From positions 124,001-188,000 of the forward strand of contig JAFXLL010000009.1 in assembly GCA_017531225.1 (NCBI GenBank): 64,000 nt of DNA, in the 5' to 3' direction. Shown piece by piece: positions 23,510 to 31,305 of the stretch. Made by a program: the position numbers and the translations under genes. The notes under the pieces were generated by a model. The model saw only the letters and a list, made by a program, of their open reading frames with translations. It was not told where the DNA came from and did no database searches. How positions within the stretch are numbered: position 1 is the stretch's first letter; every line of letters starts with the position of its first letter. The stretch comes from Bacteroidales bacterium (lineage in GTDB: Bacteria; Bacteroidota; Bacteroidia; Bacteroidales; F082).

Positions 23510-24286
23510 TTATTTTGTACACACAATTTGATTTTTATATTTCAAGTTCAATGTCTTGTATGCATTAAGTTCTTCTGTTCCGCTGAATTTTTCCAAAAGT
23601 GTCGCCAGACGCATCAGCTTGTTTTCAAGAGCATCGGTGTTGTTGAGTATGACTCTGGCTGAGAGGTTGTTGACGACCAGTTCGTATTCGTTGTGATCGT
23701 TTTTATAGATCTGACCGACGTTCCCTGAAAGGAATGGATCGTTGCCAATGGCCAAGGCGATGGAAAGTGCATCGTGGAGTCCAGCAATGGCATAAATGCT
23801 ATCGGTGACACGGCTGTTTTTGCTTGGCATGGGGAAGTCGAAGTTACCACTGGCGATGATCACACGGGGTGAGTAGTGGGGGCACGACGGGAAGACGATG
23901 CCTTCTCGGGTGACGTAAACCGAACCCTTGTCGTGGTTGAACACGCGGAGCACAGGCTCGAACTCCTTTGCCTTGATGACCAGTGTGTCGTTGAGACCGA
24001 TATAAGCGCTTGCTTGGTCGATCCACGGATTGCCATCGAGCAGTTTCTGAATTTGCATCATGTCGACAGAAGAGATGGCGGCATGACGATCTATCTTGCA
24101 GATGGCTTCGGCATGGGTGATGACGCTGTCCTTCTCCACGAAACCGTTCCTGTGGCAGCGTTCCAGCTGGAAAGTGATGCCTTTGAGAGGCGTATCCAGA
24201 TACTGCTTACGTCCGAAGACGAAGAGCACGATGAGAGCAGCTCCCGTGATCACCCATAACGCTATTTTCAAGATCTTCTTTACCAT
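23510..24286 (-). CDS. ftsQ: Cell division protein FtsQ
   Basis: This bitopic divisome protein has one N-terminal membrane helix (about residues 5-25, ILKIALWVITGAALIVLF) and a periplasmic POTRA-like plus beta domain. Of 258 residues, the segment with MQIQKLLDGNPWIDQASAYIG fits the POTRA strand-helix pattern. Sequence conservation of the family is low, so position between murC and ftsA is part of the evidence. It overlaps murC by 7 bases. Confidence 0.85.
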   Translation of the reverse strand: MVKKILKIALWVITGAALIVLFVFGRKQYLDTPLKGITFQLERCHRNGFVEKDSVITHAEAICKIDRHAAISSVDMMQIQKLLDGNPWIDQASAYIGLNDTLVIKAKEFEPVLRVFNHDKGSVYVTREGIVFPSCPHYSPRVIIASGNFDFPMPSKNSRVTDSIYAIAGLHDALSIALAIGNDPFLSGNVGQIYKNDHNEYELVVNNLSARVILNNTDALENKLMRLATLLEKFSGTEELNAYKTLNLKYKNQIVCTK

Positions 24287-25566
24287 TGGCTGATCATGTT
24301 TTGGAGTGGTTCAACGAAACGGTCGATATTGCCTGCGCCCATGGTCACCAACAACTCGGGCTTGCGCTCGGCGATGATCTCGAGCAGCTGTTCTTTGGGG
24401 CAGAGGCATTTGTCGCTCAGGTTGACCTTGTCGAGAAGGGCTTGTGAGGTGATGCCTTCGATAGGTTTCTCCCTGGCGGGATAGATGTCGAGTAAAATCA
24501 GGTCGTCGGCCATCGCCAGGACGTTGGCGAAGTCCTCCATAAAATCGCGTGTACGAGTGAAGAGGTGCGGCTGGAAGACCAGCGTCACCCGTTTTGACGG
24601 GAACGATGCTTTTATGGCCGACAGACAAGATTTTATTTCTTCAGGATGATGTGCATAATCATCGATATAGCAGTAATTGTCATTTCTGACGCGTATGTCA
24701 AAACGACGTTTCACACCTTTGAAGGTGGAGAGCGCTTTGGCAATCTCGTCAGGATTTAATCCTAATTGTGAAGCGGCTGCGAAAGCTGCGGTGGCGTTAA
24801 GCTGATTGTGCTTGCCAGGGATGGGCATTGGCAGATTAAGCTCGTTCACACGATAGTCGCAGTCTTCTCCAAAACCGAAGCTGACCTGATTCGAGACGTC
24901 AATGTCCAGCCCTTCTTTGACGATGACTATGTCTTGAGTCAGTTGAGCGAAGGCGTTGAAGCTTTCCACAAGATGCCGCTTGTCGCCATAGATGTCGAGA
25001 TGGTCAGCATCGATGGAGTTGATGATGCTGATGTTGGGCGAGAGCTGCAGGAAGGAGCGGTCGAACTCATCGGCCTCGACCACCAGCACCGACTCGGTAG
25101 TATGGCCGAGGTGCAGGTTGCTGCCGAAGTTGTTGGCAATGCCGCCAATGAAGGCGGTCATGTCGACACCGCACTCGTTGAGGATGTGTGCCACCATGGC
25201 AGTGGTCGTCGTCTTGCCGTGGGTGCCAGCGATGGCGATGGTGAAATGCTCCTTAGAGATGGCACCTAAGGCTTCGGCGCGTTTCATCATGGGGATGCCG
25301 CGACGGCGGAGCTCCACCAACTCGTTAAGGTCCTTGGGAACCGCTGGGGTGTAGACGACGATGTCGATGTCGTCAGGCAACAGTGCAGGGTTGTCCTCGT
25401 AATGAACGGCCATGCCTTCTTCTTCCAGCTGCTTGGTAAGGGATGACGGCGTGAGGTCGTAGCCAGCCACGGCGATGCCTTGGCTGTGGTAATACCTTGC
25501 CAGGGCGCTCATGCCGATGCCGCCTATGCCTACAAAATACACACTATGCAATCCCTTGATGTTCAT
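24280..25566 (-). CDS. murC: UDP-N-acetylmuramate--L-alanine ligase
   Basis: MurC adds L-alanine to UDP-MurNAc in the cytoplasm, using ATP. The N-terminal UDP-binding loop is FVGIGGIGMSALA (11-23), and the ATP loop GTHGKTT is at 114-120. IDDYAHHPEEI (the usual YAHHP motif) marks the central/C-terminal junction. The 428-residue protein is complete with all three Mur ligase domains, in contrast to the MurD-related protein in this cluster. It overlaps murG by 4 bases. Confidence 0.96.
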   Translation of the reverse strand: MNIKGLHSVYFVGIGGIGMSALARYYHSQGIAVAGYDLTPSSLTKQLEEEGMAVHYEDNPALLPDDIDIVVYTPAVPKDLNELVELRRRGIPMMKRAEALGAISKEHFTIAIAGTHGKTTTTAMVAHILNECGVDMTAFIGGIANNFGSNLHLGHTTESVLVVEADEFDRSFLQLSPNISIINSIDADHLDIYGDKRHLVESFNAFAQLTQDIVIVKEGLDIDVSNQVSFGFGEDCDYRVNELNLPMPIPGKHNQLNATAAFAAASQLGLNPDEIAKALSTFKGVKRRFDIRVRNDNYCYIDDYAHHPEEIKSCLSAIKASFPSKRVTLVFQPHLFTRTRDFMEDFANVLAMADDLILLDIYPAREKPIEGITSQALLDKVNLSDKCLCPKEQLLEIIAERKPELLVTMGAGNIDRFVEPLQNMISQW

Positions 25567-26663
25567 TTTTCGATGGCTTTTATGATGATGTCAACGATGT
25601 CGTCAGCGGCGTTGGGACGCGCAAACTGAGCGATGTTGGCTTTCATTTCGTTTTGTTTGTCTTTGTTGCTGAGCAACTCCTGCAAAGCAGGGACGAGCTT
25701 GGTCTCGGTCTCGTCGTTTTTGACCATCACAGCGGCGTTAGCATCGACCAGCTGCTTGGCGTTCTTGGTCTGATGGTCCTCAGCAGCGGTGGGCAGCGGC
25801 ACAAAGATGACGGGCTTTTGCACCAAGGCGAGTTCTGAGATCGACATGGCGCCGGCACGTGAAATCACCACGTCCGCAACGGAGTAGGCGAGGTCCATGC
25901 GGTCGATGAAGATCACGGGCTTCACTTTGTCTTCCAGTCCCAGTTCTTTGACCTCGTTGACTGCCTGCTCATGGTAGTATTTGCCAGTCTGCCAAATGAG
26001 TTGCATGTCGCTTTCCTTGAACTTGGCAAGCTGTGCCGAGATGCCTTTATTGATGCCTAAGGCGCCTTGGCTTCCGCCGACGAGTAGCACGACTGGCTGC
26101 TCGGCTTTGACGCCGAAATAATCAGCGGCTTCGTTACGATCGCAGTTGCCGTTGATATTGCCTCGCAGCGGGTTGCCGGTGAAATGGATCTTTTCTTTCG
26201 GGAACCATTGCTCCAAGCCGTTGTATGCCACACAGATGGCTTTGGCCTTTTGTCCTACATTACGGTTGGTCTTGCCAGGGTACGAGTTCTGCTCTTGGAT
26301 GATGGTTGGGATGTGGAGCCAGTTGGCGGCTTTCAGCGTGGGGCCGCTGGCGAATCCACCGACACCGATGACGGCATTAGGCTGGAATCGCTTCAGAATG
26401 CGACGGGCCTTGGTCAAGCTGCTGACGAGCTTGAACGGCAGGGTGATCACAGACAGGTCTTTGGTAAAGCCGCTGATCCATAGTCCTTCGATGGGGTAGC
26501 CAGCCTTAGGCACACGGTCCATCTCCATCCTGCCTTTGGCACCGATGAAAAGGATCTCCGCTTCAGGGAAACGTTTTTTCAATGCGTCTGCAATGGCTAT
26601 GGCGGGGAAGATGTGGCCTCCAGTGCCACCTCCACTGATGACAAATCTCAAGTTATTCTTCAT
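25563..26663 (-). CDS. murG: UDP-N-acetylglucosamine--lipid I transferase MurG
   Basis: This GT28 glycosyltransferase makes lipid II on the inner face of the membrane. The N-terminal GGGTGGHIFPA loop is at 11-21, with VIGVGGFASGP and SRAGAMSISEL (the UDP-GlcNAc-binding region) further on. Its 366 residues are the normal length. It overlaps ftsW by 11 bases. Confidence 0.96.
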   Translation of the reverse strand: MKNNLRFVISGGGTGGHIFPAIAIADALKKRFPEAEILFIGAKGRMEMDRVPKAGYPIEGLWISGFTKDLSVITLPFKLVSSLTKARRILKRFQPNAVIGVGGFASGPTLKAANWLHIPTIIQEQNSYPGKTNRNVGQKAKAICVAYNGLEQWFPKEKIHFTGNPLRGNINGNCDRNEAADYFGVKAEQPVVLLVGGSQGALGINKGISAQLAKFKESDMQLIWQTGKYYHEQAVNEVKELGLEDKVKPVIFIDRMDLAYSVADVVISRAGAMSISELALVQKPVIFVPLPTAAEDHQTKNAKQLVDANAAVMVKNDETETKLVPALQELLSNKDKQNEMKANIAQFARPNAADDIVDIIIKAIEK

Positions 26664-27975
26664 GGGCTACCTCCATTTCTTCGTTTTCTATTACTTCTTC
26701 TGTTTCCGTTTTCTGTTCTACGATTGGCGTTTCCTCCAAACTTCTTGTCACGCTGAGTATCATACCCACAGCAAATCCAGTCATAAGCATTGAGGAACCA
26801 CCTCTACTCACAAAAGGCAACTGTTGTCCCGTCACAGGCATCAGACCAGTGGACACCCCCATGTTGATCATGGCTTGCATGATCAGGATGAAGGCGATGC
26901 CGAACGCCATCAGCGCACCGAAGGTCAAAGGACGTTTTTTCATGATCCTGACAGATCGTGTGAGCAGAATGATATAGAGCAACATCACAAAGATGCCTCC
27001 CACCAATCCGTACTCCTCGATGATGATGGCATAGATACAATCTGAGAATGGCTGAGGTAAGAAGTTACGTTGGGTACTCTTGCCGGAGCCTTTGCCGAAC
27101 AGACCTCCGCGAGCGACGGCGATTTTGGCGTACATCTTCTGTGCGTTGCGATCGTCAATTTGCAGGGGTGAGTGTTCTGGGTCGATGCCGGCAGCGATCT
27201 TGGCTTCCCGCTCTTCTTTGGCGGCCTCAATACGGCCTTGCCAGGTCTTCACACGACTGATTCTGGGTTTCTTTTTGGCTTTCTCTTGTAACTTGGCATC
27301 CTCAGGGTGCAACTCGGCGGCGGCTACCACCTTCTCATAGCGGTTTTGCTTGATGTTGGCGACCATGTCGTCCGTCAGGATGTAAAGACCCATTCCTAAC
27401 ACCACGATGCCAATCAGTGCCATGAGATAGCTGAACTTGATCTGCCCGATGTAAAGCATCACGATGCAGACTACAAAGAGCATGGCGGCTGTGGAGAGGT
27501 TCTCGGGGAAGATAGGCCCCACAATTAGGACGATGGGCAGGAAGATGGGGACGATGAGATTCTTAAACGTATAGTCTCGGTTGTTCCAAACGACGATGTA
27601 TTTTGCTAAGTAGGCGATAAGCACGATCTTAGCCAGCTCACTGGTTTGGAATCCCATGATGCTACGTGAGGCACCGTTGATGCGGCTGCCAAAGAAATAT
27701 GTGAATATCAGCAAGATAAAGCAGAACAGAAGCACTAATTCGATCGCTCTCGAATAATGACGGTAATTGATCCGCGATGCGATGAACATCATCACGAATC
27801 CAGCCATCAGCGTGGCGGCATGCTTCAACAGCACCTTCTCGTTGTAAGCGCCGATACGAACATGCGCCTCAGAGCTGGTGGCACTGTAAACCGCCAGCAA
27901 CGAGATGATGCCTAAGATAAGCATCACCACCCAAATGACTCTGTCGCCTTTTAATATCTTGTTGATCCAACTCAT
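26653..27975 (-). CDS. ftsW: Septal peptidoglycan glycosyltransferase FtsW
   Basis: This SEDS-family lipid II polymerase works with the FtsI transpeptidase. The 440-residue protein has about ten membrane helices. Conserved segments include GFQTSELAKI, FPENLSTAAM, GGLFGKGSGKSTQRNFLPQPFSD and the closing PFVSRGGSSML. The large loop before GGLFGKG (about 203-283) is charged, Lys/Glu-rich and longer than in most FtsW proteins. A charged cytoplasmic C-terminal tail follows the last helix. Confidence 0.95.
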   Translation of the reverse strand: MSWINKILKGDRVIWVVMLILGIISLLAVYSATSSEAHVRIGAYNEKVLLKHAATLMAGFVMMFIASRINYRHYSRAIELVLLFCFILLIFTYFFGSRINGASRSIMGFQTSELAKIVLIAYLAKYIVVWNNRDYTFKNLIVPIFLPIVLIVGPIFPENLSTAAMLFVVCIVMLYIGQIKFSYLMALIGIVVLGMGLYILTDDMVANIKQNRYEKVVAAAELHPEDAKLQEKAKKKPRISRVKTWQGRIEAAKEEREAKIAAGIDPEHSPLQIDDRNAQKMYAKIAVARGGLFGKGSGKSTQRNFLPQPFSDCIYAIIIEEYGLVGGIFVMLLYIILLTRSVRIMKKRPLTFGALMAFGIAFILIMQAMINMGVSTGLMPVTGQQLPFVSRGGSSMLMTGFAVGMILSVTRSLEETPIVEQKTETEEVIENEEMEVAHEE

Positions 27976-27980
27976 TTTAG

Positions 27981-28008
27981 TTGAGCGTTTAGAGTTGAGC
28001 GTTTAGAG
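27981..28008. repeat. Perfect 14-bp tandem duplication at the MurD-like/ftsW junction
   Basis: The 14-base unit TTGAGCGTTTAGAG occurs twice without a gap (27981-27994 and 27995-28008). It covers the last codons and stop of the MurD-like gene and part of the spacer before ftsW. Related GTTTAGAG units occur between rsmH and mraZ (34690-34715). Confidence 0.85.
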
Positions 28009-28543
28009 ATTTTACTTCTTTCACAAAGGAATTGCCGCGCTCGGCGTAATCCATCTCATGGTCCTTGCAGGCAGGGGAGAAGAGCACGATGTCGTTCTTT
28101 TCGGCAATTGCGGAGGCCATGTGGACTGCCTCTGATAGCGAATCGGCCTCGTGGATCTCATTCACCACGCCGTTGAAGGTCAAGGCGATATTCTCTTTTT
28201 CATTACCTAAGGCGATGATGGTCTTGACTTTCTTTTTAGCGGTTTCGATGAGCTCGCTGTAGTTGTTATGGCATGAGCCGCCTACGATCCACACGACTGG
28301 ATTGACGATGTTTTCAAACGTGAACCAAGTGGCGTTGATGTTCTCGGCCTGTGCATCGTCGTAGTACATCACGCCATCGATGGATGTGATGAAGTGCTGA
28401 CGATGGGTCAAGGTGTTGAGGTCGCCCATGCAGTTCTTGATACTTTCTTTTCTGATTTCCAGAATCTTGGCAGTGATGCTGGAGGCCATGTTCTCAGGTC
28501 TGCGCTTGGAAAGGTTTTCCGTTTTTTCAAATAAGTATCTCAT
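27989..28543 (-). CDS. MurD C-terminal-domain-only protein (degenerate, lacks ATP-binding domain)
   Basis: This gene sits where murD belongs, between mraY and ftsW, but encodes only 184 residues against about 440 for MurD. Residues about 18-184 align by eye with the end of the MurD central domain and with domain 3: TAKILEIRKESIKN, then VVWIVGG, ALGNEKENI and LFSPACKDHEMDYAERGNSF. The UDP-binding N-terminal domain and the ATP loop GTNGKT are absent. The substrate-binding NDSKATN motif is replaced by DDAQAEN (62-68), and the SPACAS Ser is also changed. The ATG lies only 26 bases after mraY, so no room exists for the missing part. It cannot be a working MurD ligase by itself; a regulatory, scaffolding or relic role is possible. 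Confidence 0.82.
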   Translation of the reverse strand: MRYLFEKTENLSKRRPENMASSITAKILEIRKESIKNCMGDLNTLTHRQHFITSIDGVMYYDDAQAENINATWFTFENIVNPVVWIVGGSCHNNYSELIETAKKKVKTIIALGNEKENIALTFNGVVNEIHEADSLSEAVHMASAIAEKNDIVLFSPACKDHEMDYAERGNSFVKEVKSLNAQL

Positions 28544-28569
28544 AACTTTTATCTTTTATTTCTTATCTT

Positions 28570-29847
28570 TTATCTTATCTTGAAAGTTATCAGTGTGAAT
28601 GCAGCCAGCAAGATGGTGATGATCCAGAAGCGAATGGTGATCTTCACCTCGTGGTGGACGGTGTTGTAGCCCTCGCCGTGACCTTTGAAGGTGACTGTGC
28701 TGTTGGGCCATGCTTTCTTAAAGTCGCTATAGCTGGTGCGGAAGTGGTCGTGCAAGGGGCCTTTCTTCCATATTCTGTGCTTCTTGCCGGTCTTGACGAA
28801 GCGTTTCACATCGAGGTCAGAGAGGATCTCGAAAAGGAACACACCGCAAAGCAGAGGCAGCAGCAGTTCTTTATGCATGATGATGGCTGACACGGCAATG
28901 ATACCGCCGATGGTCAAGCTACCGGTGTCGCCCATGAAGATCTGGGCAGGGTATGAGTTGAACCACAGGAAACCGACGAGTGCGCCCACAAAGGCGGCTA
29001 AGAATACCACAAGCTCTTCGCTGCCTGGGATATACATCAAGTTGAGGTGCCCCGCCATGACGGCGTTACTGGAGATATAAGCAAGGATAACCAATGTGAT
29101 ACCTATGACAGCAGAGTTGCCTGAAGCCATACCGTCCATGCCGTCGTTGAGGTTGCTGCCATTGCTGACGGCTGCGACGATGAATACGGTGAGCATCACG
29201 AAGAATACCCATGCCAAGTTATACATCCACTTCGGTCCAGCCCATTTGAACAGGTTGGCATAGTTGAGATCGTGGCTCTTTACGAAAGGTATCGTTGTAC
29301 GAGTCGACTTCACGTCGGGACTTTTGATGACGATCTCTTTATTGTTCTCAATCTTTACTTGAACGTTTTCGTTGATTTGCACCGCAGGACTGAAACGCAG
29401 GGTGAGGCCTACGATCAAACCGAGTAGGATCTGGCCGCCAAGTTTGACCGCGGGCTTAATGCCGTCTTTCTTTTTCTTGAAAGATTTGACGTAATCGTCA
29501 GAGAACCCGATGATGCCAAGAATGAGTGTGGTGACGATCATCAGGATGGTGTAGATGCTGTGAAGCTTACACACCAACAGTACGGGGATCAGGATGGATG
29601 CGATGATGATGACGCCACCCATGGTAGGGACGCCAATCTTCTTGGTGTTATACGGGTCGATGGAAGCATCGCGTTGGGTCTCAACGACTTTTTTGCGCTT
29701 CAACATCTTGATGAACCAGTTGCCAAACCATACCGAAACTATAAGTGCAAGGATAATGGCGGCAGCGGCGCGGAAGGTGACATAGGTGAATACGCCTGCT
29801 CCGGGAAAGTTAATTTGGTTTAAATACTGGAAGAGATAGTATAACAT
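28570..29847 (-). CDS. mraY: Phospho-N-acetylmuramoyl-pentapeptide-transferase
   Basis: MraY transfers phospho-MurNAc-pentapeptide to undecaprenyl phosphate, giving lipid I. The 425-residue protein has about ten membrane helices. Conserved loops include PTMGGVIII, GFSDDYVKSFKKKKDG, NLNDGMDGMA (catalytic Asp region), FMGDTGSLTIGG and the late histidine region GPLHDHFR. A periplasmic insertion of about 80 residues (about 155-235) is typical of Bacteroidetes. The end of the gene is the low-complexity AAGATAAGATAA series. Confidence 0.96.
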   Translation of the reverse strand: MLYYLFQYLNQINFPGAGVFTYVTFRAAAAIILALIVSVWFGNWFIKMLKRKKVVETQRDASIDPYNTKKIGVPTMGGVIIIASILIPVLLVCKLHSIYTILMIVTTLILGIIGFSDDYVKSFKKKKDGIKPAVKLGGQILLGLIVGLTLRFSPAVQINENVQVKIENNKEIVIKSPDVKSTRTTIPFVKSHDLNYANLFKWAGPKWMYNLAWVFFVMLTVFIVAAVSNGSNLNDGMDGMASGNSAVIGITLVILAYISSNAVMAGHLNLMYIPGSEELVVFLAAFVGALVGFLWFNSYPAQIFMGDTGSLTIGGIIAVSAIIMHKELLLPLLCGVFLFEILSDLDVKRFVKTGKKHRIWKKGPLHDHFRTSYSDFKKAWPNSTVTFKGHGEGYNTVHHEVKITIRFWIITILLAAFTLITFKIR

Positions 29848-29850
29848 GGT

Positions 29851-31305
29851 TTATTTCTCCTTTAATGCTGATGAGAGTTCTTCTTTATCGTCGAAATGGC
29901 GTTTCACGCCTTTGATAATCTGGTAGTCCTCGTGACCTTTGCCTGCCAGCAGAATGATATCGCCTTTGTTGGCTAATGCCACGGCGGTACGGATGGCTTC
30001 GCGGCGGTCGGTGATGGCGAGTGCCTTGCGCATGTCCTCGGCAGCGATGCCTTCCTTCATCTGACGGATGATCTCATCAGGTTCCTCGTCGCGTGGGTTG
30101 TCGCTGGTGAGGATGACCTTGTCGCTAAGCTTGACGGCCACGGCAGCCATCTCAGGACGCTTGGTGGTGTCGCGGTTACCGCCACAACCTACCACGGTGA
30201 TGAGGGCCTCGTGATGCTTGCGCACCTCGTTGATGGTCTTGAGCACGTTCTCCAAGGCGTCAGGGGTGTGGGCGTAGTCGACAATGCCTACAATACCACT
30301 ATCGCTGTGAACCATGTCGAAACGACCGTTGGCGCCATTCAGCTTGCTGATCTCAACAAGCAGTTCCTCTTTGTTGAAACCCAAGGCGGTGGCGGCACCA
30401 TAGATAGCCAAGATGTTGCTGGCATTGAAGCCTCCGACCAGACGGGTGTACATCTCGGTGTTATTGACCTTCATCAACATGCCATCGAAATGGCTTTCCA
30501 ATACGACACCCTTGAAGTCGGCGTCATGTTTCAGAGCGTAGCCGAGCTTTTTGGCCTTAGTGTTCTGCAACATCACACTACCGTTCTTGTCGTCGAGGTT
30601 GGTTAAGGCGAAGGCGCTGGAGGGTAGATCGTCGAAGAACTTCTTCTTGGCGTTACGGTAGTTGACCATGGTCTTGTGATAGTCAAGATGGTCGTGGGTA
30701 AGGTTGGTGAAGATGCCTCCGGCAAACTGCAATCCTGCGATACGGCGCTGGTCGACGGCATGGGAACTGACCTCCATAAAGGCATATTCGCATTCACGAT
30801 CGACCATCTTCTTCAATAGGGCGTTCAGTTCAACGGGATCAGGGGTGGTATGGGTTGATGGGATGACTTCGTGGTCAACGATGTTTTCAATGGTGGAAAG
30901 TAAGCCACAGGCATAGCCGGCATCCGTGAAGAGACGGTAGAGCAGCGTTGCGATGGTGGTCTTACCGTTGGTGCCTGTCACTCCGACCAGCTTCAATGCT
31001 CTTGAAGGGTTGCCGTAGAAGTTGGAAGCTCCAACGCCTAAGACGTAAGCGCTGTCATCCACCCGGATGTAGGTCACGCCTTCTTTCAAGGTTTGTGGCA
31101 TCTTCTCGCAAACGATGGCTGAAGCACCTTTTTCCAGAGCCTTGTCGATGTAGTCGTGCCCGTCGGTCTGAGTGCCTTTCACGGCGAAAAACATGGTTCC
31201 TGGCTCAACGGTACGTGAGTCGAACGACACCTTGTTGATGTCAATGTCCTTGTCACCGATAAGTTCCGACAGGTTGCAGTTTACTATGATGTCTTTGATC
31301 TTCAT
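29851..31305 (-). CDS. murE: UDP-MurNAc-L-Ala-D-Glu--2,6-diaminopimelate ligase
   Basis: MurE adds the third residue of the stem peptide. The ATP loop [10 protein letters not shown] is at about 108-117, and [12 protein letters not shown] and [14 protein letters not shown] mark the central and C-terminal domains. The selectivity motif is DNPR (SDNPRDEEP), which in known MurE enzymes indicates meso-diaminopimelate. The 484-residue protein is complete. Its start overlaps the ftsI stop by one base, and it ends 3 bases before mraY. Confidence 0.95.

Follow-up and report, generated by a model that had tools for sequence, protein, structure and literature searches.

A stand-alone MurD C-terminal domain in the dcw cluster of MurL-positive Bacteroidales and a possible internal start in murD

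MurD is a textbook single-function enzyme, essential and a drug target. In the 64,000-nucleotide stretch of Bacteroidales DNA analyzed here (herein referred to as the window), the place of murD in the dcw cluster is taken by an open reading frame (ORF) encoding only 184 amino acids. This locus raises the questions of what the short gene encodes, how glutamate is ligated in the same organism, and how the short form came to stand where a full-length murD is expected.

The short gene and its conservation

The short gene (27989..28543) and the other genes of the cluster lie on the reverse strand. It is preceded by full-length murE (29851..31305, 484 aa) and full-length mraY (28570..29847, 425 aa) and followed by ftsW (26653..27975, 440 aa), murG (25563..26663, 366 aa), and murC (24280..25566, 428 aa). 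The original prediction described all neighboring mur genes as full length; for MurE and MurC this was confirmed by scores over the NCBIfam cut-offs, while MraY, FtsW, and MurG were assessed by frame length and named from sequence. The FtsW of the window is 440 aa long, as compared with approximately 370–415 aa for most FtsW frames in the compared loci, and has a charged stretch in the middle of the protein. The spacer from the mraY stop to the first codon of the short gene (28544..28569, reverse strand) measures 26 bases, the figure given originally, and the start region is A-rich (A fraction 0.63 in the 24 nt before the ATG).

The murD profile (NCBIfam TIGR01087) aligns to residues 19–178 of the clean-framed ORF, corresponding to profile positions 278–440 of 441, in good agreement with the earlier description of a 184-residue protein that is MurD-like from about residue 18. 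The score, 108.7 bits, is below the cut-off for a full-profile MurD (211.95). The Pfam family Mur_ligase_C matches residues 47–159. Neither the ORF nor the 26-base gap upstream of it encodes the P-loop, E157, K198, the N-terminal UDP-binding domain, or the central ATP domain, so the reported loss of the ATP loop and the UDP-binding domain is borne out. The ORF encodes approximately 183 C-terminal MurD residues and nothing else. The designation "C-terminal-domain-only" holds with respect to the missing N-terminal domain and P-loop but needs one correction: by alignment to full-length relatives, the ORF also spans the final ~40 residues of the central domain, and the cut is therefore not precisely at the domain boundary.

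The substrate motif NDSKATN (317–323) was read as DDAQAEN and the SPACAS segment as SPACKD, both as first noted. Residues T321, K348, S415, and F422 are D-Glu contacts of MurD; in the window, T321 is replaced by E, and the K348 and S415–F422 segments are altered. Roles of K348 and K319 in glutamate selection are also given in the literature on MurD2 (excerpts of PMC8788868). An AlphaFold2 model of the short protein, built on 55 aligned sequences, is of moderate quality (pLDDT 74), with low confidence at residues 1–14 and 36–47. The top Foldseek matches of this model in the PDB are MurD structures (e.g., 7ti7, 7u35, 2uag), with a TM-score on the query of 0.64–0.68. Homology to the MurD C-terminal domain and its fold is thus supported by the profile, by Pfam, and by the model. 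A search of plasmids yielded 18 records, all below 60% identity, with a murD annotation on 3 of the 5 matches listed.

The conservation of the gene was analyzed in a family sample of 174 genomes, 100 of which belong to the genus of the window. A strong match to the C-terminal domain (CTD) model was found in 96 of these 100 genomes; the remaining 4 are 62–72% complete. Frames were listed for 80 of the 96 matching genomes, the frame length of the other 16 being absent among the matches listed, and 78 of the 80 frames are 179–222 aa long. The two exceptions are run-on frames (G111, 420 aa; G014, 343 aa). In other genera of the family, the listed frames are 446–501 aa long, except those in G094 (200 aa), G069 (143 aa), and G181 (284 aa). 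Among 64 named loci, mostly from metagenome-assembled genomes (MAGs) of Bacteroidales/Bacteroidia, many titled as ruminant or horse gut genomes, and one labeled Candidatus Limimorpha equi, 58 carry the short gene, always between mraY and ftsW, and 6 carry a full-length MurD.

The window gene gave dN/dS values of 0.07–0.17 against 15 relatives, which are rough because synonymous divergence is high, and 46 positions are invariant among 22 aligned members. Neither a broken frame nor relaxed selection, as would be expected of a pseudogene, was found. The short gene encodes a stand-alone protein under purifying selection and is not debris. A conserved pseudoenzyme and not decay had been suggested from the sequence, together with two checks, comparison of the locus in relatives and estimation of dN/dS; both show a short form that is kept genus-wide under purifying selection.

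Glutamate ligation in the own genome and across the order

The genome that contains the window (2.58 Mb, 14 contigs, 98.4% complete) has 9 matches to the murD profile. A genome-wide search for a full-length MurD had also been proposed, and it yielded one homologue over the murD cut-off (316.9 bits), located on another contig (C9). This gene, herein referred to as murD2, is preceded by murL with an 8-base overlap. The MurL protein (L009:5990-7336) shows homology to NF041275 (E 3.8e-80, residues 15–407 of 448) with a score of 269.5 bits, below the equivalog cut-off of 700, which was built for Xanthomonadales. No Pfam family matched this protein over its cut-off, a weak match to DUF6395 being the only one. 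No match to the glutamate racemase family MurI was found in a profile search of the contigs of this genome. MurD2 carries E182 and R348 (Escherichia coli numbering), and E182, I319, and R348 occur in 31 of 31 MurD2 rows, all of the window's genus and with the own gene counted twice.

In Xanthomonas oryzae, MurD2 is reported to ligate L-Glu, after which MurL converts it to D-Glu using ATP; the stereochemistry is set by E197 and R358 of MurD2, corresponding to D182 and K348 in E. coli, and the K319T variant of E. coli MurD acquires the use of L-Glu (excerpts of PMC8788868). The own genome shares with this system a MurL adjoining a MurD paralogue with E182, R348, and a changed position 319, as well as the lack of a MurI match. 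Judged by homology and residues, the MurD2-MurL pair very probably carries out glutamate ligation and epimerization in this organism. The expectation that the D-Glu ligase is encoded elsewhere was thus right as to a full-length MurD-type ligase, found beside MurL on C9, but not as to its substrate, since MurD2 is a predicted L-Glu ligase. MurL orthologues are reported from Gamma- and Alphaproteobacteria and actinobacteria, with some low-similarity ones elsewhere; the excerpts of these reviews name neither Bacteroidota nor a CTD-only MurD (PMC8788868, PMC5808125). Among the matches listed in a search of the open-licence literature, nothing relevant to MurL in Bacteroidota was found beyond these two sources.

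The remaining murD matches in the own genome, other than the weak C2:131851 (E 8.8e-4), were assigned by profile to MurC, MurE, MurF, a fusion of MurF with alanine racemase, and a MurC/Mpl-like ligase. A split MurD was also considered and rejected: no separate N-terminal half was found among the 9 matches, all of which except C2:131851 were scanned. Two genes of the MurF type are present in the own genome: the 822-aa MurF-alanine racemase fusion (L007:310-2778; G000:C7), which scores over the cut-off, and an unfused MurF of 423 aa (L004:1246-2517; G000:C2), which exceeds that of murF. Its MurC/Mpl-like ligase (L006) is below both cut-offs. In some relatives, MurL-MurD2 fusions seem to occur, with matches to both proteins in single frames of 885–915 aa (G152:C30:6078-8726, G028:C22, G031:C23, G252:C12). 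A 901-aa MurL frame was found in G024:C4, with no MurD2 part among the matches listed.

The analysis was extended to 393 genomes sampled evenly across the order Bacteroidales. MurL was found in 125 of them (in G248 as a 37-residue match only) and MurI over the cut-off in 241. The two were found together in none of the 393 genomes, the best MurI-like match in a MurL-positive genome having an E-value of 6.2e-22. Of the 125 MurL-positive genomes, 44 have a short MurD, 64 a full-length one, and 3 a frame of 267–285 aa, two of these frames beginning at the first bases of the contig (the third is in G225); no canonical murD frame was among the matches listed for the other 14. For MurL-negative genomes with a listed frame, the frame is full-length in 91 of 95, the exceptions being G360 and G453 at contig ends, G424 (391 aa), and G051, with a short form. 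As a control, 21 MurI-positive genomes with weak CTD scores were inspected; 19 have full frames (446–865 aa), and the other 2 are the contig-end cases just named.

In total, short forms were found in 19 MurL-positive families, 10 of which also include full-length members, and short and full-length murD are mixed inside a single genus four times (g6, g50, g65, g132). In every tabulated short locus that is complete on both sides, the gene is preceded by mraY and followed by ftsW; L119, L136, and L149 miss one side. In the G051 locus (L153, family f16), mraY and ftsW flank a gene for a 212-aa CTD-only MurD; this genome is 98% complete, and neither MurL nor MurI was matched in it in the profile searches. 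Two further genomes, G117 and G023 (95–97% complete), have the short gene and lack both a MurL match and a MurD over the cut-off; both absences are possibly due to missing contigs.

Full-length MurD of MurL-positive genomes was characterized in 57 genes, a non-random set consisting of the 30 best-scoring genes of family f1 and 27 from the order sample (L040-L069, L160-L179, and seven others). L059, probably another MurD paralogue, was retained among these genes. The D-Glu residues K319, T321, K348, and S415 are intact in 57 of 57 and D182 in 56 of 57. The persistence of canonical full-length MurD in 64 MurI-less, MurL-positive genomes of the order is not explained by the model that we favor.

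A common start and repeated truncation

Variable cuts had been anticipated. Instead, the first Met of 63 out of 66 distinct short ORFs is located at model positions 264–271, and that of 53 out of 66 at positions 267–268; these coordinates are approximate because the alignment was extended without gaps. The short form thus starts as M-TLEELALQG, ~40 residues ahead of the domain boundary. The homologous residue, Met268, is internal in full-length MurD and is present in 56 of 57 MurL-positive genes and in 30 of the 42 MurI-positive genes with a residue there. For the window ORF, an alternative start at M19 was rejected, its upstream A fraction being 0.29, which is not start-like, as compared with 0.63 for M1.

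Bacteroidetes are reported to lack Shine-Dalgarno sequences, their initiation of translation depending on how the mRNA is structured and on particular bases, among them A at -3 (excerpts of PMC6847099). In the full-length MurL-positive genes, the 24 bases upstream of Met268 have an A fraction of 0.53 and a G fraction of 0.06, and A at -3 occurs at ~0.8. True starts of short genes have upstream fractions of A 0.55/G 0.07 in other families and A 0.51/G 0.11 in the window's genus, and other internal Met codons of the MurL-positive full-length genes A 0.32/G 0.23 (p 3e-25 vs. Met268). The minimum free energy of the 45 nt at Met268 is -1.25 kcal/mol in MurL-positive genes, vs. -6.31 in the rest of the gene; the corresponding values in MurI-positive genes are -4.76 and -7.00 kcal/mol. 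Ranked within each gene, Met268 comes first by A-minus-G context in 49 of 56 MurL-positive genes and has the least structure in 48 (8.5 expected).

The genes in these tests are related, 30 of the 57 coming from family f1; by family means, the difference between MurL- and MurI-positive genes is smaller yet present (p 0.0017, 0.0024). The start signal reaches the 0.9 percentile or higher in 12 of 20 MurL-positive families and in 9 of 30 MurI-positive ones. Of 30 MurI-positive genes, 16 have their best A-minus-G context at Met268 and 11 have their least structured Met there (3.3 expected). The start-like signal is therefore not unique to MurL lineages, and the nested start may predate MurL. A start-like context was thus found at the homologous internal Met, weaker in some MurI-positive families, and on this evidence of context and conservation the short product is probably translated from Met268. 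To our knowledge, no internal-start isoform of murD has been described, and a search of the open-licence literature gave nothing relevant to a CTD-only or internally started murD among the matches listed.

The number of truncations was estimated on an MraY+FtsW tree of 96 loci, 5 of the 101 chosen having been dropped for missing or partial neighbors. If truncation is irreversible, there are 9 all-short MurL-positive clades, or 5 after collapsing branches with SH-aLRT <95; with G051 included, these numbers are 10 and 6. A single clade of the 43 MurL-positive short rows is rejected (p-AU 2.8e-8). Some placements are doubtful because the tree splits family f1; the mixtures of short and full-length forms in the same genus are independent of this tree. 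Taken together, 5–9 truncations are needed among the MurL-positive genomes. Horizontal spread of one short gene found no support where relatives are close: in family f117, short forms share 71% identity with full-length MurD of their own genus, as against 62% with the closest short form from a different family; other rows are too diverged for this comparison.

Our favored explanation combines these lines of evidence. MurD2 would add L-Glu and MurL would flip it to D-Glu for the peptidoglycan stem, and the ligase part of the dcw murD would have become dispensable because MurD2 and MurL supply the glutamate step. The short product would already have existed, translated from the internal start inside full-length murD, and several MurL-positive lineages (5–9) would have retained solely this nested product. 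The remaining gene would make a free MurD C-terminal (Rossmann-like) domain with the preceding helix, no longer a ligase. As a whole, this explanation, with takeover by MurD2/MurL, a kept nested product, and a non-catalytic role, is held with moderate confidence.

The strongest competing explanation is repeated N-terminal deletion followed by translation from the first available ATG. In this case, the CTD would be functional, no nested product would have existed before truncation, and Met268 would be conserved for reasons of the protein. The frequency of Met268 in MurI-positive MurD, given above, is in line with this, as is the Lys/Asn-rich loop preceding Met268, which itself raises the A content (0.469 expected from the amino acids, 0.505 observed). 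However, synonymous choice before Met268 is shifted toward A (p 1.4e-7) and away from GC3 (p 6.6e-5) in MurL-positive genes, and no such bias was found in MurI-positive genes (p 0.93 and 0.59). Codon identity at same-residue sites also has its gene-wide maximum here, at columns 260–269 in family f1 (0.85 vs. 0.47) and near Met268 in all MurL-positive genes (0.74 vs. 0.45), a peak absent in MurI-positive genes. Moreover, none of the 69 rows begins at Met285, another Met that is often conserved further down. A first-ATG origin is considered rather unlikely, though it is the rival to be taken most seriously.

Function of the short protein and significance

With respect to function, catalysis in trans would require the CTD to complement another Mur ligase, or to bind Glu or a UDP-MurNAc-peptide on behalf of MurD2/MurL, acting for instance as a stereochemical gate. 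The association of the short form with MurL-positive genomes is compatible with such activity, and substrate residues persist in many short forms of other families, with NDSKATN intact in 17 of 42 rows and PACASF in 15 of 42 (the duplicate short genes L033/L149, L127/L151, and L138/L152 are counted twice in these counts, in the 69 rows above, and in the start-context counts, but once among the 66 distinct ORFs). In the window, however, T321, K348, and the S415 region are changed; the scanned MurC, MurE, MurD2, MurC/Mpl-like ligase, MurF, and MurF-alanine racemase match over their own C-terminal parts; and no separate N-terminal MurD half is among the 9 murD matches (all but C2:131851 scanned). 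Activity in trans thus appears improbable.

A passive relic, in which the short ORF is a spacer or translational coupler between mraY and ftsW, would fit the short distance between mraY and the gene (a median of 32 bases separating stop and ATG in 65 loci) and the loss of the catalytic motifs in the window's genus. It is hard to reconcile with the low dN/dS values, the invariant positions, and retention of the same segment in 19 MurL-positive families, and is regarded as very improbable. An artefact of assembly or binning, or a pseudogene of recent origin, suggested by draft assemblies, many of them MAGs, and by full-length murD in other genera of the family, is refuted by the spread of the form: the genus has a strong CTD match in 96 of its 100 genomes, a short frame lies on 58 out of 64 named contigs, and the form also occurs on long contigs such as G428:C1 (5.26 Mb). 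The original prediction had named a full-length murD in raw reads or in a close relative as a sign of an assembly deletion or a recent pseudogene; as to relatives, such genes do exist in other genera, but the argument does not apply here because the short form is genus-wide and occurs in 18 further MurL-positive families.

Under the explanation preferred here, the short protein may be a non-catalytic docking or regulatory subunit of the membrane-side complex of MraY, MurG, and FtsW, a role that we put forward tentatively and at less than even chance. MurD of Thermotoga is reported to bind MurG and MreB, and the C-terminal regions of Mur ligases are reported to be mobile; in the excerpts of these sources, the domain responsible for the binding of MurG and MreB is not named (PMC6420597, PMC4929429).

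Several known systems are comparable. With full-length MurD, the short protein shares homology over profile positions 278–440, the MurD fold, and the position between mraY and ftsW, as in E. coli; it differs in lacking the UDP-binding and ATP domains, in its changed D-Glu residues, and in being a stand-alone ORF. The Foldseek list also includes a plastid RNA polymerase subunit (8ras_Q, 8r6s_Q), which we take to be the MurE-like PAP11. Here too a Mur-ligase fold is a structural part of a complex, although the ligase and the complex are different and the domain is not a free CTD. Internal-start isoforms, in which a short C-terminal product is nested in a longer gene, occur in bacteria; the present case differs in that the short product is the sole one left in several lineages.

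The catalytic two thirds of MurD were repeatedly lost and the tail was kept, which suggests that the tail has another job. In the broadest form of this proposal, murD would be two genes in one, its internal start yielding a non-enzymatic protein of lipid II assembly that 5–9 lineages kept alone; we rate the chances of this as evenly balanced. The MurD2-MurL route, described in the excerpted sources for proteobacteria and actinobacteria (PMC8788868, PMC5808125), is extended by these data to about one third (125/393) of the sampled genomes of the order. The place to look for the function of the tail is beside MraY, FtsW, and MurG, and the protein-protein role proposed for Mur ligases could be tested with a free domain that has no catalysis. 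If the proposal is true, the second function of the CTD predates D-Glu ligation and can be separated from it.
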